Part shown: in pieces, positions 5,878 through 64,000 of the stretch
Layout: the number at the start of each line of letters is the position of its first letter
How positions within the stretch are numbered: position 1 is the stretch's first letter
Assembly (NCBI GenBank): GCA_022563535.1
Contig: JADFNE010000010.1
Coordinates: forward strand, 1 to 64,000
From: Myxococcales bacterium
Lineage (GTDB): Bacteria > Myxococcota_A > UBA9160 > UBA4427
Reading direction: 5' to 3'
DNA: 64,000 nucleotides
Position numbers and translations under genes: made by a program
Notes under the pieces: model-generated
The model's input: the letters and a program-made list of their open reading frames with translations, nothing else
Database searches by the model: none
Told to the model about the DNA's origin: nothing

Positions 5878-6681
5878 TCACCCCCCCACACCCCGAACAC
5901 TTTCCTGCTGCCAGCGCGCCAAGCCACCGGGCTGATAGGTGAGCAGCAGCAGCCTCCGCTCCTCCTGGGTCTTGTTGCCCTGCGAGCCATGAACAATATC
6001 GCCGTGGAAGTACACGACCGAACCCGCCGGTAGGTCGATCGGCACGGGTTCGTTCAGATCGTGACGATCGATGTCGGTGTATAGACGGCCGACGTTGCCC
6101 CGGTCTTCGAAGCATGCGAGGGCTCCGTGTTTGTGGCTTCCGGGGATCAACCAGAGGCAGCCGTTGTCGGTGTTGGAGTCGTCGAGGATGATGGCCACGC
6201 TTACCAGTTGATCGAGGTGGTTGCACAAGAATGCCCAATAGGGGTTGTCCTGATGCCATGGGAAAGGGGCGCCGCCGGGGCGCTTGAAGTTGAGCTTGTC
6301 GCTGAACAAACTGATGTCGTTGCTCTTGACGATTGCCCGGGCCGGACCCCAGAGGCGGATGTCATCGATCATCTGATTGAGGGTCGCGTCGAGATGGTGA
6401 TAGGGTTCCATGGTTCGGATTTCTTTCGAACCGTCCCGCCATTCCCATTGGACACTCGACCCGAGTACATTTTGGTAGCGCTTGCCGTCGATCAAGCGAG
6501 GTGCTTTGACGTCCGCGGCTTCGGCGGCCTGCTCGATTTTGCGGTGGATGGCTTCCACGCCGTCGCACAGGGGCTTTAGTTCGATTTCATCAAAGACCGA
6601 CGAGCGCGCGAAGTATCCGTCGCGCTCGTATTGGGCGAGTTCAGACTGCGTCGCCTGATCACTGAACCGGGTGGCCGTCAT
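5878..6681 (-). CDS. Phytanoyl-CoA dioxygenase (PhyH) family protein
   Basis: Probable Fe(II)/2-oxoglutarate-dependent oxygenase, 267 residues from the ATG at 6681, which follows a GGAGAG site. The metal triad is visible: HQD in PFPWHQDNPYW supplies His and Asp, and the distal His is in GDIVHGSQGN. The Arg of EERRLLLLTYQPGG probably binds 2-oxoglutarate. The family hydroxylates phytanoyl-CoA and many unrelated small molecules, so the substrate is unknown. It is transcribed in the same direction as the upstream S9-like gene, separated by about 160 bases. Confidence 0.85.
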   Translation of the reverse strand: MTATRFSDQATQSELAQYERDGYFARSSVFDEIELKPLCDGVEAIHRKIEQAAEAADVKAPRLIDGKRYQNVLGSSVQWEWRDGSKEIRTMEPYHHLDATLNQMIDDIRLWGPARAIVKSNDISLFSDKLNFKRPGGAPFPWHQDNPYWAFLCNHLDQLVSVAIILDDSNTDNGCLWLIPGSHKHGALACFEDRGNVGRLYTDIDRHDLNEPVPIDLPAGSVVYFHGDIVHGSQGNKTQEERRLLLLTYQPGGLARWQQESVRGVGG

Positions 6682-6842
6682 CTCGAAGTGCTCTCCAACA
6701 ACCCGTCGCGTCAGCGACGGGCCGCAAGAACACACGTTAGCAGGAGGTATGCCCTCTCAGCAGGTCAGACAGAAGCGCGCGCAGGATTCATCTCCTCCCA
6801 CGGGGAGTCCACAGCTCAGGATCGCCGAGAAAGATGGACCGC

Positions 6843-8873
6843 TCAGTCTGCTGGCTCGGCGATGGGTTCTGCGAGATCGTCGGTTGCTTCTGCTGGCGCG
6901 TCCATCGGTTGCGCCGTCTCCGAGATTTTCGCCGGTGCCGGCGGTGGGGTGCTGGCGGCCAGGTTGGTTTCAAAGAAACTCAAGAGCTGCGAATAAAAAT
7001 CGATTCGACTGCTCTCGAGCACCAGACCCTCAGCGTCGTCGGCGTACTCCAGGTACTTGACGTTCTTTCCCGCAGCTTCGAGGGCCTGCTTGAGCTTGCG
7101 AGCGTGATCGACTGCGACGCGGGAATCCCTGGCACCGTGCCCCAGCAACACCGGAACCTGGATTTCATCGATGTTGCGAAGAGGAGAATTCATGCGCACC
7201 CCTCCGCCGTCGTCGCCGGAGGTGTCGAGACCGGTAATCCCCGCGAAACTCGCACCCGCGCGATAGAGCTTCGGTGTCGTCACGAGCCCCATCAATGCCG
7301 AATAGCCTCCGAAGCCCGTACCAAAAATCCCAACTCGATCGGGATCGGCAATTCCCTCACGGATTGCCCACTTGACGCCATCGGCGATGTCTTCCTGGAT
7401 CACGCGACCCCAGTCCTCGTTTCCGGCGAGCCGAAACTCGCGTCCAAACCCGCTGCTACCGCGATAGTTCACCTGCAGAACGGCGAATCCGCGGTTGGCA
7501 AAGAACTGGACCACCGGGTTGTAGACCAGTGCATCGCGAGCCGACGGTCCGTCGTGGGGGAGCACGATCATCGGGAGCTTGTCGCTCCCGGGATCCGTCG
7601 GGAGCGTCAGATAGCCGGGTATGTTGCTTCCGTCCCGTGCCGCAAAATTGATTCGCTTGACCTCGGCCAGTTGATCGACAGGAATGTCCGGGTGTTGCTC
7701 GAAGATGAAGTTGATCTCTTTCTTCGAACGATCGTAGGCGTAGTAGACGGGAGGTTGAACGTGGTTTCCCACTTCGATAATTGCAAGGTTTCCGTCGGCA
7801 GTCGCACTGACAATTCGATTACTCGTCCTGTGCCCTTGAACCGTGAGCAATGACTTATCGACCGCCCCTTGTTCTCTCTCCTCGTCTGCATCGAAGAAGG
7901 CGATTTCCGGCCCGTCAGCCGTGAAATTGGCTCCCACGATTTTCTGACGCGCTTCGCTGTACTGCGCACCGGTGACATCGAACTCAGGGTGAGCGAACAC
8001 GAGGTCGCCCAAGGAACGGCTAGCGATATTGAACTCGAAGAGCGCATCCCGCCCCTCGTGATCCGCAATCACATAAAGCAGATTCGAGTCTTCGTGAAAT
8101 CCGGCGAACCGGAATCTGTTGTTTCGATGATCTTCCGCTTCAAAGACCGGTTCGAGTTCTTGACTTACCTGACTACGTGCGAGCAGGGTATAGCTCTTGC
8201 CATCCGCTGCTTGATCCGAGGCCTCGGCAGCTCGCACGTTGCCTTTCTGGTCCACGTACCACTCGCCGATACCCTGGCTGGCGGCGTGCTGTAGACGCAG
8301 CCGGCCAGAAACGATGTTCAACCGGCTGACACTCGGAATCTCCTCCCCACGTTCAAGATGAGATACCAACACGTAGTCTCGCTCGGAGGGCAGCAGGCTG
8401 ATGACCTTGTCTTCGAAGTGGTCTTGCCGCGCAGATTCTCCTTTCCTCCATTTTTCTCCGAGCCACTTTAAATTCGGTCGGTCGCGATTGACGCCGTACA
8501 ATCGAGTCTTCGAGGGATTGACTTCTCGCGCGTCGGGATCGGACACCGACGTGCTCAAGAGCAAGCGACGCGAATTTGCCCATTCGATCGAATCGAGCCG
8601 CACCTCTTGCATCGGAAACACGGCGAGACCCTCAGGGTCGCTCCCGACGACCTTGCGAACAAAGACGCGCTGAATATCGTCATTCGAGAATACAAACGCG
8701 ATGTGCTTCCCGTCGGGCGAAAGCGTCGGCTGGCTCATGGTGGGGTTTCTGAAGAAAACATCGACGGCAATGGTTGCTGGGGGTTCGGCAACAATCGCTG
8801 GGGGTTCGGCGGTCGCACTCGCAACCGTCAAAAAACACGCGATCGCGCTCGATAGTCCAATGCGAAGCATCAT
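6843..8873 (-). CDS. S9 prolyl-oligopeptidase-family protein, apparently catalytically dead
   Basis: Exported protein of 676 residues: signal peptide (about residues 1-22, cleaved near ATAEPP), an N-terminal beta-propeller-like region with TLSPDGKHIAFVF-type strands, and a C-terminal alpha/beta-hydrolase domain (from about 410). The fold landmarks of S9 peptidases are present (NYRGSSGFG, DIADGVKWA), but the nucleophile elbow reads FGTGFGGYSA with Gly520 where the family has Ser, and the usual HGF near the C-terminus reads AEGL with Glu615 in place of His. Asp583 (HGARDSR) is kept. A Pro/Ala/Glu-rich tail follows the hydrolase domain. It is probably a non-catalytic binding or scaffold protein. 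Confidence 0.82.
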   Translation of the reverse strand: MMLRIGLSSAIACFLTVASATAEPPAIVAEPPATIAVDVFFRNPTMSQPTLSPDGKHIAFVFSNDDIQRVFVRKVVGSDPEGLAVFPMQEVRLDSIEWANSRRLLLSTSVSDPDAREVNPSKTRLYGVNRDRPNLKWLGEKWRKGESARQDHFEDKVISLLPSERDYVLVSHLERGEEIPSVSRLNIVSGRLRLQHAASQGIGEWYVDQKGNVRAAEASDQAADGKSYTLLARSQVSQELEPVFEAEDHRNNRFRFAGFHEDSNLLYVIADHEGRDALFEFNIASRSLGDLVFAHPEFDVTGAQYSEARQKIVGANFTADGPEIAFFDADEEREQGAVDKSLLTVQGHRTSNRIVSATADGNLAIIEVGNHVQPPVYYAYDRSKKEINFIFEQHPDIPVDQLAEVKRINFAARDGSNIPGYLTLPTDPGSDKLPMIVLPHDGPSARDALVYNPVVQFFANRGFAVLQVNYRGSSGFGREFRLAGNEDWGRVIQEDIADGVKWAIREGIADPDRVGIFGTGFGGYSALMGLVTTPKLYRAGASFAGITGLDTSGDDGGGVRMNSPLRNIDEIQVPVLLGHGARDSRVAVDHARKLKQALEAAGKNVKYLEYADDAEGLVLESSRIDFYSQLLSFFETNLAASTPPPAPAKISETAQPMDAPAEATDDLAEPIAEPAD

Positions 8874-53200: not shown

Positions 53201-54308
53201 CTCGACCACCGCGACGATCGGAAAGCGGAGCGGGGATTTGGTTTTCGACGTCAACAAATTTGCCATGTCCGAGGGCGAGAAGCTCTCGGTAGGGGGTGCG
53301 CTCACGATCGGAAAGCCAGGCGCACTGGAAGCCTTGATCGGGGATCTGTCGGCGGTCACGATCGATGTCATCGCCGCCCGAATCGCCATCGTGCTGCGCA
53401 GCGCCGGTCGTTACCTGGGCCTCGACGGATCGCTCGCGAGTGATGCGGGCGTCGACCTCGTCGCCAATACGATTCACCTCAACGGCGCAATCGAACTCAT
53501 TGGCAGCGGAAAGACAGCGAGCTTTGGCCTGCTCAATCCGTATACGGCAGACGCAAACCTGGCGTCGTTTCCCGTCGCGGGCTTGAACGCCAACAACCGC
53601 GCCATCGCGGCCGCTGACTTCGATTGGACTCTGGCCGACGCCCCTCCCGACCTGCACCCCACCGGTGCGACCCGGGACGATTTTTCGAGCGTATTCTTTG
53701 GCAAGGAAATCGTGCCGGCACCCACGGCCTGGCGCGCAGAACCCTTCATGCCATCGGACGAAGCCCTGCTGGCGCGACTCGAGATCGAGGCCCGCACGGA
53801 CTCACCTCGGGCCATCCACGGCCGCCTCGATGGCGCCGGCATCATTGATGATGTCGGCAGTGACCTGCCCGACCGGTCATCCGACCGGGTCACCGTGTCG
53901 ATTTCGCGCGTCCTCGCACGGGACGCGGAAGCCGTGGCCGATCGCTTCGATCGACTGTTCGGAAAGGATGGAAATCGCGCGGAGCATGTCCGCCAGGCCT
54001 TGCAGGCGGCATTGGACGACTACTTGGCTACCAGTACTACACGCCGGGTACTGGGCTTCGAGTTCCGCCGCTATTTGCGCAACCGACCCAATTCACAATT
54101 TGACGCCTACCAGGCGCTAGAAGATCTCGATCGTCTGTTCTCATACCATCGAAACCTCGGCTTGACGTCCGGGGAGTACAAACGCATTCAGCGCCGCTGG
54201 CTGCAAGACATCAAACCCGACGGAATCAGCCTGGAGCAATTGGCTGAAGCCATTCACCCGACGCGATTTGTTCGAGGGAGTGACATCCTCGAACTCTTCG
54301 GAGATTGA
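47220..54308 (+). CDS. TpsA-like giant exoprotein with filamentous-haemagglutinin N-domain
   Basis: Secreted beta-helix protein of 2362 residues, start ATG 47220 (an in-frame TTG lies two codons earlier). A long N-terminal signal (about residues 1-58, core VAWLTLFSFFVSPASVSFA) leads to the TPS domain: VIHWDVMDQQADN, QNQGDSVLNQAQG, and the NANL-like CVFANEAGVTFADGSYIDV. The rest is beta-helix-like. From about 49.7 to 53.5 kb, six or seven degenerate long repeats share a TANEIxLxAGxG strand followed by an FxLRQxAxI strand. The last ~200 residues are helical and charged, without a recognised domain. No ligand-binding or toxin domain is recognised. Confidence 0.84.
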   Translation: MRDCNFKREGGVRSRGGKSSPRLAEHLRVRNGPWKRRVAWLTLFSFFVSPASVSFANESTATAIGNATTQDGAFTENTQTHTTFEQDTSRAVIHWDVMDQQADNTLTFIQNQGDSVLNQAQGISPSVFRGRIDCESCVFANEAGVTFADGSYIDVTRLVTIAGNVSVQDFRAGDLHAENINGEVHNFGQIHADSALLIGARITNGGEIYIADGTLTAVVGQEVWLREHDSNVVIHAQLPDPGRLSDAGEFDELPAIDNSGTIDAGTGSVRLLAGDMLSFAIRNQGRIRAREIRLEAGEGSLVEVSGGGILDAGNSQVGGVGGTIAVLGDYVAIADEAVLDASGHSGGGEILVGGDRGGAAGTRTSKSTYVGKHTLLRADATHSGDGGKIIVWSDGGTRSYGTISALGGVDSGNGGFVETSGLEHLDVLSSPLIYARSGNADDRGGEWLLDPFNIDIVAICTTTCLDDDLIEDGSYDPDLVFTTTVFGSSNPSEIQVDLLKEVLLSGANVTITTQGEGSDAGDEVGNINFKADLIFSGGALFDTKASLSLFAAGDITISNTISNNDSNLTLDLDFRANDSGQPELEHETINYALLGDLTIDALIETGGGSVLLSGINVNLNATKTIDTDGGNIDLFGADVSVAGTLDSGGGDVFVQAVRTLTVSDDGSSFSEAGGKVEIATTGVIVTDGGKVDLVAFTDAITSPGGDGETLVNIYGEIDTENSDSDFVGGDITVTVVGDARGVEIIDRRSVTTDPMLKTGGGDFVVLSDSNVTIGEATIDTRNTSSDPDEDGDITIAARLFTSLQATGTSGIKLLADSRINISAGADRGQNLSIDSTFGSIELAADQINLTAGDGTGAFATSEVVLTGGGLQFADGAGTANPEELTISQDATIDGNNAPVTTQFIVPATALDQLTLRSFDKDIQLTGVNLALSDELTLSAKEDINFTGSTLNVESSLNLEVFDAFAVGSTLASEINAASVAHPIDLSITAGALGTLTNTDEAGLSIDADLTLTSSASMLLRGGAGGAGDLTFNGASTPTLTANEITLWAGSGASGGSLVDAPRVLALDAAGMVEQVNFDLMGSSTAFTLRQSASITDATIPNNTTQFVSGVAGVNYALRSDAGGIGGVDEIANSKLEDTSLSLHAFGTIDPVFTGGSLQVQNLDIGGLDSFAYTRDLNNEFKVDAGGVLVIRAGMSGTGDLSFDGSLDGSETDTSFNIDADEIRLVAGDGLAGQIESRVILDNNAAAENRPTFRGAGGDTVPVTTFVFRQDDAIAQNNLPLIDKFFNGVAPDIYVVHSDHDGSLLFAPPPSILITDFDNLPLATNRLILSGEHVTIARDDNLDLVSDFAQGNASFNLEIRANTIELRADDLLDTEGSVPLSISIYDFASENVPTFTDFERSQDDDASELFTPALIDFASSPATTPIAILLSQEADITKDVLEEIRDSLGAPLLTTHDDPDDDSALRLELDTFEGNVELNSAAQYVEFMDLRIVLRADDAMIDWNQSSGSSTTYNLANLVINANHSLVIGDATSVDNFEIVSETGIEINAGNAGSDGDLSFGQLVILTANAIRLRAGVDGQLAGNGETPAVDVTTNSTEFNFVDTADSGDPPDTVFEIRQDAGFVDNLGIAINGESLIAGLIQIQGPNEIGTLRLVSDAGNITITDLAATFVPYFPGTAGSVAQLELTAGAADPLGQGTVTIQDVTATDTDLTAYDSVDITADEIILAANGSGIVRASDLDVIFHKGESGPALDPLRFTIRHDSADICEGAVDCAMASLDALPDLSQFDLRSSFPLLHYTLESIAGYVELTTQIASKMLVGSDPFLQGVDLTLLGKGGGDFDVKVSADLPDRDADIQLNSLVIGKVNDPLSIRITDVHLATITDQTYYGTVEIENTAELTGDTLHFTEDISAVMAGKDEDLTLNVREHLRIDGDIDLLTTGSLRINLDPTSADFPRVEFGGDGAIQMVRADSVEIFATPEADLDGFSGEIPVTERASTTATIGKRSGDLVFDVNKFAMSEGEKLSVGGALTIGKPGALEALIGDLSAVTIDVIAARIAIVLRSAGRYLGLDGSLASDAGVDLVANTIHLNGAIELIGSGKTASFGLLNPYTADANLASFPVAGLNANNRAIAAADFDWTLADAPPDLHPTGATRDDFSSVFFGKEIVPAPTAWRAEPFMPSDEALLARLEIEARTDSPRAIHGRLDGAGIIDDVGSDLPDRSSDRVTVSISRVLARDAEAVADRFDRLFGKDGNRAEHVRQALQAALDDYLATSTTRRVLGFEFRRYLRNRPNSQFDAYQALEDLDRLFSYHRNLGLTSGEYKRIQRRWLQDIKPDGISLEQLAEAIHPTRFVRGSDILELFGD
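49740..53520 (+). repeat. Degenerate long protein repeats in the TpsA-like gene
   Basis: Units begin near 49749 (ADQINLTAGDG), 50336 (TANEITLWAGSG), 50872 (DADEIRLVAGDG), 51294 (RANTIELRADD), 51915 (TANAIRLRAGVDG), 52374 (TADEIILAANGSG) and a partial one at 53459 (VANTIHLNG). Most are followed by a strand of the form FTLRQSASI, FVFRQDDAI, FEIRQDAGF or FTIRHDSAD. The spacing varies, so these are old duplications. Confidence 0.7.
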
Positions 54309-54316
54309 GTACTGCG

Positions 54317-57300
54317 ATGAAGTTGACGTTGCTGACATCCAAACCTCGAGCCTGGCTCGGACGGCGCCCTGGCCTGCTGCTGGTCTTGTGCGCGGCGCTT
54401 TCGCTTTCGAGCGGAGCGTCGGCGCAGACGTTGTTTGTCGATGAAGGCGGCGTCACGGATCACGCCGGACACGTCCATAAATTTGAATCTATAGACGGGA
54501 TCCAAACAATCGGAACTCCATTTGATCTCGACATGACAGACTTCTCCTTTACCGACATCACCGACTCCGACTTCAACAACGCAATCTTGACGTCTGCAAT
54601 ACTCAACAATATATACATTCGACTCTCAATTTTCACGGACGCCGACTTCACCGGTGCCAAGTTCCAGCGAGCCATCGTACGCGCGGGAAACTTCGACGGA
54701 GCAATTTTCACGGGTACCAATTTCAGCAATACCCAGTTCAGTTGCGTCCCTGATCCAGACGGAGATTCATCCAGCGACTTTCCGGACATCTGTCCCTCGT
54801 TTGTCGAAACTGACTTCACGAACGCAATCTTTACCTCCACATACTTCGGTCCAGATACAGTGGGAGACCTGCTCGTCTTCTCGGGGGCCAATTTTCGAGG
54901 CGCCGTCCTCACCGGCGCCGTCTTCGCAGGCATCTCCGAACCCTGTTTGCTGTCTCCGACCCGGTGCATGCTTTGGGGCGACGACCCGACGGGGATGAAC
55001 CCGCTGGTTGAGGGCCTGACGATCCTGAGCCGCTCTGATCTGCGCGGCTCGGACATGCGCAATCTCGATTTTGAGGATGGGGATTTTTCCGACGTATTTG
55101 TCGCCGGGATCCGCTTTGAAGGCTCGAACTTTACAGACACGAAGTTCGATCTGATTGACTCCATTTGCGAGATCACCCCCGGTGACGCGGACGACATCGC
55201 TCTTTGCGCGGCTTTTGCCAGCGAGTATCCGGTCGGGATCAAGGCCGATTTCCGCAACACCACGATCACCGACTCGAGCTTTGTCCAGGCCAAACTCGGC
55301 GGCACCGACTTCACAAACGCAAGCTTCAGCAACGTCGTGCTCGATTTCGCCAACTTGGGTTGCACCACCAACGTAGGTGACATCGACAACTTCGCCGAAG
55401 ACTGTGGTGATTGCGCAAACTTTTCGGGGGTGTTCGTCGACACGGGTCTGGTCGCCGGCAAACACAACATTCGTATGCGCAGTGTCACCTTCGACAACAT
55501 ATTGGCGTGCTCGGCACTCAGCACGCTGGTCAATGACCTCAGCTACATGGACCTCGACAACGCCAGCTTCAGCGACGCAAACGTTGTAGCGGCCATGGTG
55601 GATTTCGTAGGGTCGAGCCTCGTCAGTGCCAACTTCAGCGGAGCGGTCATCACCGGTCTGGATTTCACCGGCGCCAACCTCACCTCCTCCAATCTATCCA
55701 ATGCCAGCATGGCCGGTGTGTACTTCAACGACGCGATTCTCGACGGCAGCAACGGCGGCGGCGGCACGTTCAGCGGTGCGACCTTCATCGGTACGTCTAC
55801 GTCTCTCGTGGGCGCCATGCTGACGTCAACTTTCTTCGACGGCGCGATATTCACCGACGCCGATCTCACGAACGCCAATTTCAGCAACGCCGATCTTTCG
55901 GGTGCGATATTCACCCGCGCCGATCTCACGAACGTCGATTTCAGCAACGCCGATCTTTCGGGTGCAGTCTTCTCGGTTTCCGATCTTTCTGGAGTGAACT
56001 TCACCGGCGCTCAGTTCGATAGCGCCACCCAACTCAACGGCGGCGGTGGTTCTCAACTCGACGGCATCATTTTGGCTGGCGTAGATCTCACGGGCTCTAC
56101 CAGCCTGTTCGAGGACACGGTTTCGTTCATCCCCGGGGCCGGTGAGACTGCGGCCGACGCACTGGGAGTGAATCTCGACTCGCAAGATCTCAGCAATTTC
56201 GACTTCACCGGAGTCACCCTGACCAACTGGAGTTTCGACAGTGCCAACCTCACGGGGGTCGACTTCACTGGGGCCACGTTGACGGGTGCCAAATTCACCA
56301 ACGTGCAGTTCGATGATTACTTCGATGGCCTCATCGGTACCAACACCACGATGTTCTCCGGAGTCGATCTCAGCGGCTCGGACCTGAGCGGCCTGGATCT
56401 CACGGGCTACGACCTGAGCGGTGCAGACCTCACCGGGGTTACGGTGACCAACACCAAGTTCGTCGATGCCGACCTGGGCAACACAACGCTCGATGGCCTC
56501 GTGAGCAGCTGCAACGGGGGCGTCGATTGCGCTGAGATCACTGGGGCAATGCTCGACTGTGCAGATATTTCGAATACGAGCTTCGCGTCCCTCGTCACCA
56601 CCGACATGCTGGGTGCACCCAACGCTGCTACCGAGCTCTTCCAATTCGTCGATCCCGACCTCAGCGGCATCAAGCTGAGAAGCGCAGATCTCCAGGACTA
56701 CAATTTTTCGGACAATTCCTCGAGCATCACTTTGACCGGTGCCGACTTCGAGGGCAGCGACGTCAGCGGTGCAGACTTCACCGGCGCGACCCTCGACGGC
56801 ATTCGCCTCAAGGACGCAACGATCTGCAGGACGGTCGATTCGGTCACCACCTGCCCCACTTTCTCCGCGACAAGTCTGGTGGGCAGCACCGACTGCAACG
56901 ACCAGGAGGCTGCTGATTTCAGCGGCACGGATTTCACCCAAGCCCCACTCGACTTATTCGCTGGGGGCGCGATCACCAACGCCAGCGCTGAGTGCGTGAA
57001 TTTCACCAATGCGAATCTCAGCCACACGTCCGTTACCCCGACCAGCGGGTTCGATTTCAATGCTCTCACACTCTGGAATGGAGCAGTTCTCGCGGGAGCC
57101 GATCTCAGCTACCAGAACTTCTCGGGGCTTCCCAACGACTTCTTCACGAAGCTGGGCCACGCAGCCGAGAGCCGCGACGACATCTGCACCAGCGATGACG
57201 ACAACGTCGCAACAATCGATCCGACACCCGACCTGAGGGCGACGATCTTCAGCTGCGCAAATCTCACGGGACAGCGACTGACCGGACTGGCGACGTCGGG

Positions 57301-59254
57301 CGCGGACCTGCGAAATGCCGTATTTGTCCGTGCCACGATCTCGGGGGCGACGTTTAGCCTGGACGCCTCCGAACTGGAAGGTGCCAACTTCACCAACGTG
57401 AATTTTGACGACGTGGATTTGGCCGATGTCTTTCAGGGAGTGGCGACCGTCAAGCAAGCCGACGGAGTTACGGAAGTCACCGACGATGAAACTCCCCCGG
57501 TCCCATACCCGAACCTCAAAGGTGTCTCCTTTGCCCACGCGACGCTAGAGATCGTGGGAGCGACCCTCGACCTTCACCATGTAGACATGACCGGCGCGGA
57601 TCTCGTGGGTGCGAACCTCAATGGGGCCGACCTGACGGATGCGATCCTCGATGAAATCCCTGATAGCAACGGAGAGGGCATCGGAGTTCTGTGCGGAACG
57701 GTTGCCGCTTCGCAAGATTCTTGTGCGCCACTCGAACAGACGACGGTGTCGTGTCTCACCCTCGTGGGAGCGAAGCTGGCTGGGGCAAGCTTCCAAAACA
57801 TCGACTTCACCGACCTGTTCGATGACACCTCAGCAGGCGCCACCCCACAAGACTTCTTTCAGACGATCGACGGACCCGACCTCACCCGCACAGATTTCAG
57901 CGGTGCCAACATCACGGGCATGAATATGAACGGCATCGATTTTACGGACGCGGAGTTGTTCTCCGTCGAGCCGTTCTGTGACACCGTAGGCTGTGTGACC
58001 TTTGAAGGCGCGACATTCGGAAGCAGCAACCCCGAGATCCTGATCAACTTCTCGGGACGCGACTTCATGACCGCCAACATCGCCGGCGCCACGTTCAAGA
58101 ACGTAAGCCTTGCGAGCACCGACTTTACCGAAGTGGTCGATCTGTGTATTCCCATGGGCGCATGCCTCAGCATCACCGGAACGAACTCGAGCCTGTCGAA
58201 CGCGGATCTGAGTGGTCTCGACCTCACTGTCGTCAGTTTTGGCACCGGTGCGGATAAAGTCATCGATTTTAGCGCCGCGCTCTTCATCAACTCCAATCTT
58301 TCAAATTTCGACTTCAGCGATCGAGACTTCTCCGGGGTGGATTTTACAGCGACTGATCTATCCGGTGTGATCTTCGAGAACGCTAGCTTGGTGTCTGCCA
58401 GAGCCGGCTGTCGCATCTTTGATGGCGTCGAGATCTGTACCAATTTCGAGGGTGCCAACCTGTGCGGCGTCGATGCACGAAGTGCATTGTTCGAAGGAAA
58501 CTTCGCAAACGTAGACACCTCTGCCACAATGACATGCACAACCTCTGCGAACTTCAGTGGCGCCCGATTCATCAACATCGACTTCGACAGCACTACGAAC
58601 TTCGCCGGCGCCAATCTCGACAACGCCATCTTCGATCCCACGGTAACCTTCTGCGCCACGCTCATGGACTGCCTGGACATCACCGGGGCAAGCCTGGTCG
58701 GCGCCACCCTGTCGGGCTTCGACTTCAACAGCGTGCCCGATGACTTCTTTACCACCGCTGCGAACAACGACCTGCGGCAGATCGACTTTTCCGCTTCGAA
58801 TCTATCGAGCAAGGATTTCTCAGCCGCGGATCTGGCTTTCGCGGACCTGAGCGAAACAGATCTGAGCGGCGCGAACTTTTCGAACGCAAACTTCAACAAG
58901 ACCCAGTTCGCGCTGGGCGCCGTCACCGACGGGACAACGTGCACGCTCGCCACGGGAGGCATCCCGACCGACCTGCGCGGTGCGGATATCTGCGATGCCG
59001 ACCTCAGCCGCGCGTTGAATTTTCAGCGAGGTTGCATTCTGGTCGACGCAACCACGTCCTACAATTCCGGTACTGAGTTCCCACCGGGCTTCGACCTTTT
59101 GGTGGAACTCGGTCCCCGTGGCGGGTGTTCGGACCCCCCCGGCGGAGTCATAATCCCCGAACCGAGCCACGTCCTGCTCCAGGGCACAGCCCTCGTCCTT
59201 CTCGGTTTGCTCGCCCAGCGCCGAAGAGTCCTTCGCGGACGACGGACCCATTAG
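54317..59254 (+). CDS. Giant exported pentapeptide-repeat protein with PEP-CTERM tail
   Basis: A 1645-residue protein starting at ATG 54317, 8 bases after the TpsA-like stop. A signal peptide (LLLVLCAALSLSSGASAQ) is followed by hundreds of residues of pentapeptide repeats of the A(D/N)(L/F)xx kind (for example SNADLSGAIFTRADLTNVDF), which should form right-handed square beta-helices. At intervals the coils are broken by loops holding a Cys pair, such as CNGGVDCAEITG, CDTVGCVTFEGATF, CIPMGACLSITG and CATLMDCLDITGASL. The protein ends in a PEP-CTERM sorting signal (IPEPSHVLLQG, a hydrophobic helix, then QRRRVLRGRR), so an exosortase should process it. No enzyme domain is seen. Confidence 0.88.
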   Translation: MKLTLLTSKPRAWLGRRPGLLLVLCAALSLSSGASAQTLFVDEGGVTDHAGHVHKFESIDGIQTIGTPFDLDMTDFSFTDITDSDFNNAILTSAILNNIYIRLSIFTDADFTGAKFQRAIVRAGNFDGAIFTGTNFSNTQFSCVPDPDGDSSSDFPDICPSFVETDFTNAIFTSTYFGPDTVGDLLVFSGANFRGAVLTGAVFAGISEPCLLSPTRCMLWGDDPTGMNPLVEGLTILSRSDLRGSDMRNLDFEDGDFSDVFVAGIRFEGSNFTDTKFDLIDSICEITPGDADDIALCAAFASEYPVGIKADFRNTTITDSSFVQAKLGGTDFTNASFSNVVLDFANLGCTTNVGDIDNFAEDCGDCANFSGVFVDTGLVAGKHNIRMRSVTFDNILACSALSTLVNDLSYMDLDNASFSDANVVAAMVDFVGSSLVSANFSGAVITGLDFTGANLTSSNLSNASMAGVYFNDAILDGSNGGGGTFSGATFIGTSTSLVGAMLTSTFFDGAIFTDADLTNANFSNADLSGAIFTRADLTNVDFSNADLSGAVFSVSDLSGVNFTGAQFDSATQLNGGGGSQLDGIILAGVDLTGSTSLFEDTVSFIPGAGETAADALGVNLDSQDLSNFDFTGVTLTNWSFDSANLTGVDFTGATLTGAKFTNVQFDDYFDGLIGTNTTMFSGVDLSGSDLSGLDLTGYDLSGADLTGVTVTNTKFVDADLGNTTLDGLVSSCNGGVDCAEITGAMLDCADISNTSFASLVTTDMLGAPNAATELFQFVDPDLSGIKLRSADLQDYNFSDNSSSITLTGADFEGSDVSGADFTGATLDGIRLKDATICRTVDSVTTCPTFSATSLVGSTDCNDQEAADFSGTDFTQAPLDLFAGGAITNASAECVNFTNANLSHTSVTPTSGFDFNALTLWNGAVLAGADLSYQNFSGLPNDFFTKLGHAAESRDDICTSDDDNVATIDPTPDLRATIFSCANLTGQRLTGLATSGADLRNAVFVRATISGATFSLDASELEGANFTNVNFDDVDLADVFQGVATVKQADGVTEVTDDETPPVPYPNLKGVSFAHATLEIVGATLDLHHVDMTGADLVGANLNGADLTDAILDEIPDSNGEGIGVLCGTVAASQDSCAPLEQTTVSCLTLVGAKLAGASFQNIDFTDLFDDTSAGATPQDFFQTIDGPDLTRTDFSGANITGMNMNGIDFTDAELFSVEPFCDTVGCVTFEGATFGSSNPEILINFSGRDFMTANIAGATFKNVSLASTDFTEVVDLCIPMGACLSITGTNSSLSNADLSGLDLTVVSFGTGADKVIDFSAALFINSNLSNFDFSDRDFSGVDFTATDLSGVIFENASLVSARAGCRIFDGVEICTNFEGANLCGVDARSALFEGNFANVDTSATMTCTTSANFSGARFINIDFDSTTNFAGANLDNAIFDPTVTFCATLMDCLDITGASLVGATLSGFDFNSVPDDFFTTAANNDLRQIDFSASNLSSKDFSAADLAFADLSETDLSGANFSNANFNKTQFALGAVTDGTTCTLATGGIPTDLRGADICDADLSRALNFQRGCILVDATTSYNSGTEFPPGFDLLVELGPRGGCSDPPGGVIIPEPSHVLLQGTALVLLGLLAQRRRVLRGRRTH
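55861..55980 (+). repeat. 60-bp near-identical tandem repeat within the pentapeptide gene
   Basis: Bases 55861-55906 and 55921-55966 differ at only two positions and encode four pentapeptide units each; the last 14 bases of each 60-base unit diverge. A recent duplication inside the repeat tract. Confidence 0.85.
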
Positions 59255-59275: not shown

Positions 59276-59902
59276 CTACACCGCCGCAGAATACGGCGGT
59301 GCTGGGTCGTACTCCATCATGCGTTGGGTGTTGCGCGCGTGCTCGGGGCTGAACATCTGTCCCACCACCCAGAGCGACATGTCGATCCCGGCCGAGACTC
59401 CCGCCGAGGTGACCAGCCGACCATCGCGCACGTAGCGGATGCGTTCGAGTACTTCGCTGTCGACGGCGTGCTTGCGCAGTTCTTCGATACAACCCCAGTG
59501 GGTCGTAATTTGGCAACCCTTGGTGAGGCCAGCCTTGGTCAAGATCATCGAACCCGTGCATACGCTGGTCACCCAGCTGCAGGCCGGAGCAATCTCTTGC
59601 AGCCAGGCAAGCAGCGTTGGATTTTCCATTTCGCTGCGACTGCCCGCCCCACCCGGAACCACAACGACGTCGAGTGCGGGCGCGTCCTCAAAGGAATGGT
59701 CGGGAAGCACCCGCAGCCCCTTGGAACAGCGCACGGGATCCTTGCTTTGCGCGATGGTGACCACCTGCATTTGATCCTGGCCAAGCGCGGCCATGCTGAA
59801 CACCTCGTAGGGCCCCGCCCAATCCAGTTCTTCGGCGTCGGGATAGAGAACGATGCCCACTACGATGGTCTTGCTGCTCTCGCTCGTCGTCGAATCGGTC
59901 AT
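59276..59902 (-). CDS. DJ-1/PfpI family protein (isonitrile-hydratase-like)
   Basis: A 208-residue DJ-1/PfpI protein. The nucleophile elbow Cys is in VTSVCTGSMILTKAGL and the preceding strand is DVVVVPGGAGSRSEM. The THWGCIEELRK segment is shared with the amidase-like domain of GlxA proteins and with isonitrile hydratase. It overlaps the GlxA-type regulator upstream by 4 bases, suggesting that the regulator controls or senses the same small molecule. The substrate is unknown. Confidence 0.87.
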   Translation of the reverse strand: MTDSTTSESSKTIVVGIVLYPDAEELDWAGPYEVFSMAALGQDQMQVVTIAQSKDPVRCSKGLRVLPDHSFEDAPALDVVVVPGGAGSRSEMENPTLLAWLQEIAPACSWVTSVCTGSMILTKAGLTKGCQITTHWGCIEELRKHAVDSEVLERIRYVRDGRLVTSAGVSAGIDMSLWVVGQMFSPEHARNTQRMMEYDPAPPYSAAV

Positions 59903-60981
59903 GCTGTCTTCTCCTTCTGGTCGGTCTGGCCCGTGGCATTGCTCCGGAAACGGTCGCGGTACTCCGTGGGTGCCACGTGCAAGTTGCGCAGAAATGCTCG
60001 GCGCATGGTTTCGCTGCTGCCGAAACCACAGGCTTCGGCAATGACCTCGACGCCGCCGCGAGTTTCTTCGAGTCGCGTGCGTGCGGCTTCCACCCGGGTC
60101 GTTTCGACGAAGCGAGCCGGAGTGCTCCCGACTTCGGCGCTGAAGACTCGTGCAAAGTTGCGCGGGCTCATTGCACTGCGCGCAGCGAGGTTTTCGACAC
60201 TGAGATCGGCGTTCGGATGCTCGACGATATAGCTCTGGACTTCGCGCAAACTGTCTCGCTCCGCCAACTGGGCCGAAAGCTGCGCGCTGAACTGAGATTG
60301 GCCTCCCGGACGCTTCAAGAACATCACCAGGGTGCGCGCCACTTGGAGCGCCGTCTGGCGCCCAAAGTCTTCTTCGACCAGCGCGAGGGCGAGGTCCATG
60401 CCCGCGGTGACACCGGCCGACGTATAGACGTTGCCATCCTTGATGAAGATGGGCTCGGGATCGACGCGCAGGCCCGGGTAGAACTTCTCCAGGAGATCAC
60501 AGGATGCCCAATGCGTCGTGACACGCCGCCCCTCGAGCAGCCCGGCCCGGGCGAGCAAGAAGGTTCCCGAGCAAACCGAAGCAACCCTGCGCGCCCGGGG
60601 CGCCAACGCTTGAATCCAGGCGATGTGAGCCGGGTTCTGAACAGCGCGCTCGGTTCCCGTCCCCCCCGGCACCATCAGGGTGTCGATGGCAGCTTCATCG
60701 TTACACACGTCGTCGAGACTTCTGCGCGCCACCAACTCGAGTCCGGAAGACATACGCACGGGGCCGGAAGCCAGGGCTGCGAGTTCGATCGAGTATGCGG
60801 GACCGGAGATCTCTCCGGTCTCTGCCTCGCCCACGCTCGCTGCGGTAGAGAAGACTTCCAGCGGACCGGTGATGTCGAGGATCTGCGCGTCGTCATAGGC
60901 CAGCATGACGATGCGCCTGGGGCGCTTCGGATGCCCGTCGCTCGCGTCTCGCTTGAAACTGTCGTCAGGCCAAAAACCCAT
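59899..60981 (-). CDS. GlxA-type transcriptional regulator (DJ-1/PfpI + AraC HTH)
   Basis: Regulator of 360 residues from ATG 60981. The N-terminal DJ-1-like domain has DTLMVPGGTGTERAV and VASVCSGTFLLARAGLLEG. The C-terminal AraC-type DNA-binding domain has the two helix-turn-helix units, NLAARSAMSPRNFARVFS and VIAEACGFGSSETMRRAF, and then FLRNLHVAPTEYRDRF. It likely binds a small ligand and regulates the adjacent DJ-1 gene. Confidence 0.92.
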   Translation of the reverse strand: MGFWPDDSFKRDASDGHPKRPRRIVMLAYDDAQILDITGPLEVFSTAASVGEAETGEISGPAYSIELAALASGPVRMSSGLELVARRSLDDVCNDEAAIDTLMVPGGTGTERAVQNPAHIAWIQALAPRARRVASVCSGTFLLARAGLLEGRRVTTHWASCDLLEKFYPGLRVDPEPIFIKDGNVYTSAGVTAGMDLALALVEEDFGRQTALQVARTLVMFLKRPGGQSQFSAQLSAQLAERDSLREVQSYIVEHPNADLSVENLAARSAMSPRNFARVFSAEVGSTPARFVETTRVEAARTRLEETRGGVEVIAEACGFGSSETMRRAFLRNLHVAPTEYRDRFRSNATGQTDQKEKTA

Positions 60982-61140
60982 GGCCCGACACTGCCAGCCG
61001 GATGGCCTGTCAGCAATGACCAATAGCCCTCTTTTTCTGCCAGTTGTCGAAAAGCCCGAAATTCCTGGGTAAATCAGGCTGAATGGGGCGGATGTTGCGC
61101 CGACAGGGCGGCGTTGCACCGCCAACACGGTGTCGCTCCG

Positions 61141-61689: not shown

Positions 61690-61944
61690 GGCGATCTCCT
61701 GTCGGAGGAGGGAAACCACGGAAACTGGCGGCTTCGAGAACACATCGTCCGCGCGGTGGCCGGCCTTGAACGTCCAGCTCTCATGAGCCTCCGTCGTGCC
61801 GCCAGAGCGCTAAAGCGGCTCTGAGCCCAGTCGCGCGCGGCACTGGGTTTGTGGCGCCGTTCATATTGCCAAGCCAGTGTGCATGGGCGATCGTTGACCT
61901 CGATCAAGAGCTAGAGGGTGCCCTGCGAAGATTTGCGCGTTGAA
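61690..61944. other. Intergenic region upstream of the cobalamin riboswitch
   Basis: No gene is seen. The promoter for the riboswitch transcript should lie in the right half; I cannot identify its boxes with confidence. Confidence 0.35.
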
Positions 61945-62180
61945 ATTTTTGCAGGCGGTTCCCCGGTGCTTCGCGAATCACTGCGATGTTGCACCGGGAA
62001 ACTGCGGGAAGCCGGTGCAAGTCCGGCGCGAGCCCGTCGCTGTAACTGGGGACGATGAGCGGATCTGTGCCACTGGTCCTGTTTGCATTGCGCGCTTAAC
62101 GCAAATGGCAAATGAATGAAAGACGACTGGGAAGGCCCGCATCATCGAGTGATCCAGAAGCCAGAAGACCGGCCCTCTAT
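61945..62180 (+). ncRNA. Cobalamin riboswitch
   Basis: The conserved core is plain: GGGAAGCCGGTGCAAGTCC, then GGCGCGAGCCCGTCGCTGT, and the B12 box AAGCCAGAAGACCGGCC near 62158-62174. The outer limits are estimates. It lies on the same strand as the PEP-CTERM gene (62413) and the TonB-dependent receptor (63281), so adenosylcobalamin should repress both. The ~230-base leader between the B12 box and the first gene has no clear terminator; a small hairpin CCACG-GTGAAA-CGTGG is at 62189-62204. Confidence 0.93.
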
Positions 62181-62412
62181 GCGGGATGCCACGGTGAAAC
62201 GTGGTAAGTGCTTTACGACTCTTCGGAGCAGGAGTGTAGAGCGAGGTACCGGTCCGACATTTTGTCTACCGACCCGGCGCTTCGCCTGAACCCTGTCCAT
62301 CAGTCCTGCACTTCGCCGCAGCGCTTGCGATCCGGCAACGCCGTCGTTTCGACGTTGCCGTCGAGGCAACCCTGCGTCCGGGACGACGCACGATGGGAAG
62401 GGAACCGGAACC

Positions 62413-63273
62413 ATGCGATCCATGAAAGAACGAAGACGGCCCGCACGGGCCGCCGCGGCGCTCGTGTGCGCGATCCTCGCCGTGAATTCAATCAGCAAAG
62501 TTGCGAGTGCCGCGAACTGCACCGCGCCCGGATGCACCATCGCGGAGATCAATGCCTGGGCGACTGAGGTCGTCGAGTTGATCCGCGGTGCCATCAACAT
62601 CGATGTACCCGAAGCCGGGAACGTCACCTATGGCGATCCCGCAGACATCCTCGGCATCGCGTCGGGCGTCCCGACCGAAGCCGTATCCCTGGGCGATGCG
62701 GGGTCGGTCACCGTGAAGTTCGCCGATCCGATCTACGACGGCCCCGACTTCGATTTTGCGGTCTTCGAGAATGGCATCAGTTCTGGTGACCCCGCTCTGA
62801 TCTTCATGGAACTCGGCTTCGTGGAAGTCTCGAGCGACGGCATCAACTTCGCTCGCTTTGGCGCCCTCACCTCGCGCACGACCGCAGTGGCCAGCTTTGA
62901 AGAGACCGACCCCGACGACTACGACAACCTCGGGGGCAATCGTCTTGCGGGCACCGGCACGGAATTCGATCTGTTCGAGCTCAGCAATCACCCCCTGGTG
63001 ATCAGCGGCGACGTGGATCTCAATGCGATCCTGTACGTGCGCATCGAGGATGTCGTGGGCAACGGTTCCCGGAGCGATTTCATGGGCAATCCGATCTACG
63101 ACCCTTTTCCCACTCCGTTCATCACGGGAGGCTTCGACATCGACGCAGTCGGTGCGATCAACGTACCCGAACCCGGGACCGAGACCGGTTTGATCGCGGG
63201 AGCCCTCGGGCTCGCATGGCTCTCGCGCAGACGCGAACGCGGAAGCGTTTCAAGTCAACGACGACCGAGATAG
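62413..63273 (+). CDS. PEP-CTERM surface protein of a cobalamin-regulated operon
   Basis: An exported protein of 286 residues: signal peptide (ARAAAALVCAILAVNSISKVASA), a single acidic domain (about 35-255), and a PEP-CTERM tail (VPEPGTETGLIAGALGLAWL then SRRRERG). The domain has GDAGSVTVKFADPIYDGPDF, FAVFENGI and FVEVSSDGINFARFG, a pattern I recall from surface proteins next to B12 receptors in other phyla. Regulation by the riboswitch and the receptor gene 7 bases downstream suggest it helps bind or deliver cobalamin. The start follows GGAAGGGAACC. Confidence 0.8.
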   Translation: MRSMKERRRPARAAAALVCAILAVNSISKVASAANCTAPGCTIAEINAWATEVVELIRGAINIDVPEAGNVTYGDPADILGIASGVPTEAVSLGDAGSVTVKFADPIYDGPDFDFAVFENGISSGDPALIFMELGFVEVSSDGINFARFGALTSRTTAVASFEETDPDDYDNLGGNRLAGTGTEFDLFELSNHPLVISGDVDLNAILYVRIEDVVGNGSRSDFMGNPIYDPFPTPFITGGFDIDAVGAINVPEPGTETGLIAGALGLAWLSRRRERGSVSSQRRPR

Positions 63274-63280
63274 ACCGGCG

Positions 63281-64000
63281 ATGATTCGCAGAGCCAAACC
63301 TCACTGGGCTGCCCTGCTCGGAGCCGCATTCGCACTCGGGGCGAGTGCGCTGCCGCAGATTGCGACGGCACAAGTCACGGACCCGGAGGATGAGGCGATC
63401 GAGGAGATGATCGTCGTTGGGGTCAAGATGGGAGCGTTGCCCATGGACGCCACCTCTTTCTCCAGCGAGATCGATCTCCAACGCTTCGAGGGCGAGCAGC
63501 GCCGCCTCGAGGACCTGTTGGCACAAACCGTTGGCGTGCAACTGCGACGCTTTGGCGGACCGGGGGAGCGAGCCGAGATTTCCATTCGCGGTTTTGCATC
63601 GTCCCAGGTCGTGGTGCAACTCGACGGCATGACACTCAATAATGGAATGGGCGGCGGCGTAGACCTCTCGAGCATTCCACTGGCGCAGCTCGAAAGTGTG
63701 TCTGTCACCCGAGGCGGGAGTTCCCTGCGCGCCGGGAGCGGTGCCATGGGCGGCGTCGTCGAACTCCGAACCCGGCGGCCCGACTTTCCGTCCCAACTCG
63801 CCAGCGCCCAGGCGGGTTCTTTCAACACCTACGACGTCTCCTTCTACCGCACCCAGCCGGGCCGCGTGGCAGATCTGGGATTCGGATACAGCGGTTTCAG
63901 AACGGATGGAGATTTTGAGTTTGCTCGCGTCGAAACTCGACTTCCCAGTGGCCAGATCATTCTCCCATCAACCCCGAGTGCGACCCGCATCAACAACAAG
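63281..64000 (+). CDS. TonB-dependent receptor (BtuB-like), cut by the window end
   Basis: The first 240 residues of an outer-membrane receptor that continues past the window. A signal peptide (LLGAAFALGASALPQIATAQ) is followed by a TonB-box-like segment (AIEEMIVVG) and a plug domain with ISIRGFASSQVVVQLDGMTL and SVTRGGSSLRAGSGAMGGVV. The beginning of the barrel is seen. Control by the cobalamin riboswitch argues that the substrate is vitamin B12 or another corrinoid. It is open to the last base with no stop. Confidence 0.88.
   Translation, partial: MIRRAKPHWAALLGAAFALGASALPQIATAQVTDPEDEAIEEMIVVGVKMGALPMDATSFSSEIDLQRFEGEQRRLEDLLAQTVGVQLRRFGGPGERAEISIRGFASSQVVVQLDGMTLNNGMGGGVDLSSIPLAQLESVSVTRGGSSLRAGSGAMGGVVELRTRRPDFPSQLASAQAGSFNTYDVSFYRTQPGRVADLGFGYSGFRTDGDFEFARVETRLPSGQIILPSTPSATRINNK

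Follow-up and report, generated by a model that had tools for sequence, protein, structure and literature searches.

We propose that a group of genes at the end of the window (the whole stretch of DNA analysed here, i.e. positions 1 to 64,000 of contig JADFNE010000010.1 of an uncultivated Myxococcales bacterium, assembly GCA_022563535.1) forms an operon for acquisition of B12 (corrinoids), which is off when B12 is plentiful and which uses a BtuH-type capture protein delivered by exosortase. This reading is given a probability of roughly three in four; no binding or expression data are available. According to the proposed mechanism, scarcity of B12 would cause the riboswitch to permit expression of three genes, which would encode a secreted BtuH-type corrinoid binder, a TonB-dependent outer-membrane transporter and a possible BtuG-like protein of 544 amino acids. 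Following export by Sec, the BtuH-like protein would stay anchored in the inner membrane through its PEP-CTERM tail until cleavage by exosortase, which is inferred, as is its subsequent delivery to the cell surface or matrix. There it would bind corrinoids and hand them over to the receptor; binding, hand-over and the off-with-B12 logic are likewise inferences. The relevant features are as follows:

61939 to 62191, plus strand: cobalamin riboswitch aptamer (RF00174), complete, detected by cmscan
62192 to 62412, plus strand: leader from aptamer to start codon, expected site of the expression platform, none confidently identified
62413 to 63273, plus strand: BtuH-like PEP-CTERM protein, 286 aa (open reading frame; homologs behind B12 riboswitches; relation to BtuH)
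62413 to 62511, plus strand: predicted Sec signal peptide MRSMKERRRPARAAAALVCAILAVNSISKVASA, read from the sequence
62512 to 63171, plus strand: predicted BtuH-like domain (family alignment A2; profile match to PDB entry 8BLW chain B; hhalign)
62770 to 62772, plus strand: codon of Asn120 (VFENG), aligned with Asn399 of BtuH2 (combined alignment; contacts from PMC8941943)
63163 to 63234, plus strand: PEP-CTERM exosortase sorting signal (VPEP, hydrophobic stretch, Arg cluster; TIGR02595)
63281 to 64000, continuing to contig position 65302, plus strand: TonB-dependent receptor, N-terminal part (Pfam Plug; domains of the full gene)

The riboswitch matches RF00174 over its entire length (model positions 1–189 of 189) with 87.2 bits, as compared to a gathering score of 31.5 (E 3.8e-20), which bears out the claim of a B12 riboswitch in the earlier note. 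It is the sole Rfam match above threshold in the window and one of just two cobalamin riboswitches in the 4.63-Mb genome, the other one being located at C43:35030-35298. Riboswitch, PEP-CTERM gene and TonB receptor gene are co-directional, and merely 7 bases separate the two genes. Neither an intrinsic terminator on the plus strand nor a sigma-70 promoter could be assigned around the riboswitch, and the folding z-score of the leader (-1.8) was not decisive. Ligand-dependent control of the downstream gene by the riboswitch is thus an inference without expression data. On the minus strand beside the operon lie two overlapping genes of GlxA/DJ-1-type appearance (59276-59902 and 59899-61128), one of which has an AraC-like C-terminus.

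We searched 98 related genomes for homologs of the 286-aa protein and scanned the surroundings of 30 domain copies, from 29 genomes, for RNA families. A cobalamin riboswitch was detected upstream and on the same strand in 29 of the 30 copies, within 1.4 kb of the homolog in 28 of them; the single copy lacking it is that of genome G031. As the 61 relatives scanned possess only 0–2 cobalamin riboswitches per genome, this association cannot be due to chance. The earlier note had suggested looking for the same arrangement in other genomes and had stated that its idea would be refuted if the domain occurred mostly apart from B12 riboswitches; the arrangement recurs, and this refutation fails. All four genomes of the window's genus carry two riboswitches each, one preceding the BtuH-like and the other one the DUF4465 PEP-CTERM gene. 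Twelve loci with adequate flanks, that of the window among them, show the same order of capture protein, TonB receptor and 544-aa-type protein. In Persicobacter (Bacteroidota), riboswitch, BtuH-like lipoprotein, TonB receptor and a DUF5074 (BtuG) protein follow each other in the same order.

To which family the domain belongs was not apparent from standard models: no Pfam or NCBIfam model reached its cut-off with the window domain, and no family member had a significant Pfam match. A phmmer search of the PDB with the single 286-aa protein also yielded no match; only the family profile succeeded. This profile (A2), comprising 29 family members, detected residues 385-497 of 8BLW chain B (E 9.6e-5). 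The match corresponds to the H-domain of BtuG1 from Bacteroides thetaiotaomicron, the protein that forms this chain; the H-domain is homologous to BtuH2 (PMC10404256). Indeed, the H-domain segment of 8BLW matches 7BIZ, the BtuH2-B12 complex, with an E value of 2.5e-17. When aligned by hhalign with nine Bacteroidota-type BtuH domains, which were gathered from plasmid and fecal contig records, A2 scored 96.3% (E 1.5e-9), albeit over about 100 columns only, whereas the control alignment with DUF4465 reached 0.5%. Common ancestry of the window domain with DUF4465 was rejected on the basis of this control; the window protein also has no match to PF14717. A further PDB match of A2, the trefoil-knot entry 7SQ3, was regarded as chance because no single stretch passes. 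Judging from these alignments, the window domain is distantly homologous to BtuH, which binds B12, and to the H-domain of BtuG1. Modeling by AlphaFold with two sequences gave no usable structure (pLDDT 27), tblastn against plasmids found no relative of the window protein, and no relative could be confirmed in viral contigs.

At the level of residues, the relationship is partial. Asn399 of BtuH2, which contacts the phosphate of B12 (PMC8941943), corresponds to Asn in all 38 sequences of the combined alignment and to Asn120 in the window protein, and Phe401 is mostly kept. The position of Gln333 is occupied by Asn or Asp wherever it is aligned, and the region with His476, Tyr510, Trp511 and Trp577, in which BtuH2 contacts the corrin ring, has no counterpart in the myxobacterial proteins, or none that can be placed in the alignment. 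Therefore, the binding pocket as predicted from the alignment must differ, at least partly, from that of BtuH2.

A second line of evidence comes from DUF4465, to which the B12-binding proteins BtuJ1 and BtuJ2 belong (PMC12751083) and of which further divergent members bind B12 as well (PMC13398666). The other riboswitch of the genome fronts a DUF4465 protein (PF14717, 162 bits) that ends in PEP-CTERM, and a profile of the local DUF4465 proteins (A3) picks up three family members of known structure (9HMU, 9FCT and 9I2L). DUF4465 was detected in 27 of 95 relatives; 10 of 13 further DUF4465 loci adjoin a riboswitch, and most of the proteins end in PEP-CTERM. The window domain and DUF4465 are encoded in one ORF in ten genomes (G004, G006, G014, G015, G018, G022, G027, G028, G029 and G057) and by neighboring genes in four more (G024, G037, G053 and G077). 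The fused ORFs are found at loci L039, L040, L012, L041, L038, L015, L017, L019, L027 and L028.

The 286-aa protein possesses an N-terminal signal peptide and a C-terminal VPEP-TM-RRR arrangement. Its tail passes TIGR02595 marginally (16.3 bits, cut-off 16) and stays below the cut-off of the Pfam PEP-CTERM model (13.2 versus 20.7 bits), and the motif is retained by most close relatives. The designation as a PEP-CTERM protein, made in the earlier note, is therefore justified. Five exosortase matches (PF09721) were obtained in the genome, the best with 234.6 bits. The domain is encoded in a PEP-CTERM protein in 22 genomes, all of which have exosortases. Conversely, the three exosortase-negative genomes tested (G091, G094 and G096) encode homologs without PEP-CTERM, and lipobox-like N-termini occur in several of the homologs that lack the tail. 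Two genomes (G010 and G031) have exosortase and a homolog lacking the tail; G097 is outside this comparison. Co-occurrence of exosortase and tail gave p of about 0.003 in Fisher's test, which relies on approximate counts and cannot be taken as an independent sample since the genomes are related. Overall, comparison between genomes, though no experiment, supports the previously proposed link between exosortase sorting and vitamin uptake. As the homologs of exosortase-less genomes lack PEP-CTERM, the pattern suggests that the anchor, exosortase-dependent or lipid, may have changed whereas the domain for capture stayed the same. The window also encodes a 1649-aa pentapeptide-repeat protein with terminal PEP-CTERM (54305-59254), and a similar protein is encoded upstream in the same-genus locus L003.

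A variant that overlaps with our preferred explanation holds that the protein is not kept at the surface but released as a free, siderophore-like carrier of corrinoids. Such release has been proposed for ZepA, which serves the uptake of zinc, carries PEP-CTERM and was detected in the exoproteome (PMC10957091). However, the homologs from exosortase-less genomes do without PEP-CTERM, which, together with the lipobox-like N-termini of several tail-less homologs, argues that attachment to the cell is the shared property. Hence, we consider a free carrier possible but rather unlikely.

It might also be that the PEP-CTERM protein is a non-binding accessory of a B12 operon, while DUF4465 and other partners accomplish capture. 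Membership in the operon alone does not prove binding, because BtuK2 and BtuL, which are encoded in B12 operons of Bacteroides, did not bind B12 (PMC12751083), and most of the residues by which BtuH2 touches the corrin ring lack conservation, falling into a region that the window family does not have or that resists alignment. However, the invariant Asn at position 399 and the largely kept Phe401 speak against this idea. Moreover, DUF4465 resides at another locus in the window's genus, leaving the 286-aa protein as the only candidate for capture in the operon besides the product of the third gene. Taken together, a mere accessory role appears improbable, and we favor corrinoid capture by the 286-aa protein, a function that is inferred in the absence of binding data. 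The proposal of the earlier note that a PEP-CTERM protein captures B12 is hence backed by the riboswitch linkage, the homology to BtuH and the ten fusions with DUF4465, but the protein is BtuH-like rather than BtuG-like as had been suggested.

The receptor gene starts at 63281, is cut by the end of the window and continues to contig position 65302, encoding 673 aa. Its part within the window matches Pfam Plug with 75.5 bits, and the full protein contains plug and beta-barrel (PF07715, 73.4 bits; PF00593, 120.9 bits). A TonB-dependent receptor, as claimed before, is thus present, but its likeness to BtuB is generic: it scored 112 bits with the BtuB equivalog model TIGR01779, which demands 599.7 bits, ruling out a recognized BtuB, and slightly more with the heme model TIGR01785, again below cut-off. 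In the same-genus locus L003, the TonB receptor is split into two frames with a short gap (6651-8801), reflecting either decay or an assembly error. The gene for the 544-aa protein (65296-66930) overlaps the end of the receptor gene and lies beyond the window. The protein has no significant match in Pfam, NCBIfam or the PDB; hhalign with BtuG propellers gave 33% (E 4.5e-4) over just 91 columns, and several of its relatives have lipobox-like N-termini. It is plausible, though unproven, that it represents the BtuG counterpart. Its gene is in turn overlapped at its end by a gene resembling low-molecular-weight phosphatase/ArsC (contig 66927-67403), and similar phosphatase/arsenate-reductase-like genes are present 1–4 kb away in two relatives of the same genus.

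Cobalt and precursor genes are also controlled by B12 riboswitches, and the specificity of the receptor cannot be read from its sequence. As a rival reading, the operon could import a B12 precursor, another corrinoid (cobinamide, pseudocobalamin) or cobalt instead of B12. We give this little credence: the relatives of the BtuH and DUF4465 type bind complete cobamides (PMC8941943, PMC13398666), and the corrin-ring gene CbiC, the sole biosynthetic marker looked for, was not found in the genome, which is 97.9% complete. In addition, the genome encodes the activation domain of methionine synthase MetH, which binds B12, together with a single good FecCD permease adjoining a BtuF-like binding protein. 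As far as one marker can tell, these findings fit a bacterium that imports corrinoids instead of making the ring itself. Finally, the neighborhood might be due to chance, with the riboswitch acting on another target and no connection between the PEP-CTERM protein and B12. This idea has nothing in its favor beyond the absence of direct data and can be dismissed in view of the 29 linked copies, the tight spacing and the DUF4465 fusions.

Capture of B12 at the surface by BtuG, BtuH and BtuJ is established in Bacteroides, and ZepA provides the precedent for nutrient capture by a PEP-CTERM protein, in this case of zinc (PMC10957091). Our literature search, to which most subscription papers were out of reach, retrieved nothing linking PEP-CTERM or exosortase to B12 capture, and PEP-CTERM is not mentioned in the DUF4465 paper. 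What is new is thus the delivery: the task is known and the domain distantly so, but the sorting system had not been connected with B12 capture before, and B12 scavenging here seems to take another path to the surface. The function of exosortase substrates is known in only a few cases; here, a whole subset of these substrates gains a testable ligand. The data further suggest that B12 capture is the constant trait and that the means of surface anchoring, lipid or exosortase, can be swapped.

Tentatively, and with somewhat less than even confidence, this can be taken further: exosortase display would be a separate B12 route that replaces lipoprotein anchors in the lineage, and the fused BtuH-like/DUF4465 chains of at least ten relatives, each comprising twice a cassette of signal peptide, domain and PEP-CTERM, would be released as two sorted binders. 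In the fused proteins, the first domain is still followed by a sorting tail of its own (PEP motif, hydrophobic stretch, Arg cluster), although the motif has decayed to PEV/PEA in G004 and G015. In most of them, a second signal-peptide-like hydrophobic stretch precedes the second domain, and a final PEP-CTERM is located at the end. Several junctions lack Met, so that internal re-initiation at an ATG is not available there. The fused ORFs are possible tandem exosortase substrates, as far as can be predicted from their architecture, and would naturally lend themselves to testing if cleavage occurs at an internal PEP-CTERM. No paper combining PEP-CTERM and polyprotein was found.

Among known systems, BtuH and the H-domain of BtuG1 (PMC8941943, PMC10404256; 7BIZ, 8BLW) share the remote core homology and the conserved phosphate-contacting Asn with the window protein. 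The BtuH/BtuGH locus of Bacteroides thetaiotaomicron is likewise riboswitch-controlled and includes a TonB receptor and BtuG. In contrast, the window protein has an exosortase tail in place of the lipid anchor, lacks PKD and propeller domains as well as the corrin-contact region, and belongs to another phylum. As the BtuH domain was described from gut Bacteroidetes without known structural homologs (PMC8941943), its range is hereby extended to a further phylum. The DUF4465/BtuJ proteins (IPR027828; 9FCT, 9I2L, 9HMU), fused or adjacent to the window's family in 14 genomes, include the second riboswitch-fronted PEP-CTERM protein of the genome but not the window protein itself. Cyanobacterial ZepA is comparable in its PEP-CTERM, in capturing a scarce nutrient and in having TonB-dependent transporters nearby in the genome, but handles zinc under control of Zur rather than B12 under a riboswitch. 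BtuB is a TonB-dependent receptor behind a B12 riboswitch like the window receptor, which nonetheless stays far below the equivalog cut-off. The LIC_13355 family of Leptospira (NF033170), a lipoprotein family whose model states no function, matches the window protein weakly and below cut-off (E 0.003) and a distant homolog in L036 with E 2.6e-11. The latter, a LIC_13355-like lipoprotein encoded on the minus strand (L036:214-1017), is located behind a weak B12 riboswitch and ties the Leptospira family to the BtuH-like group.
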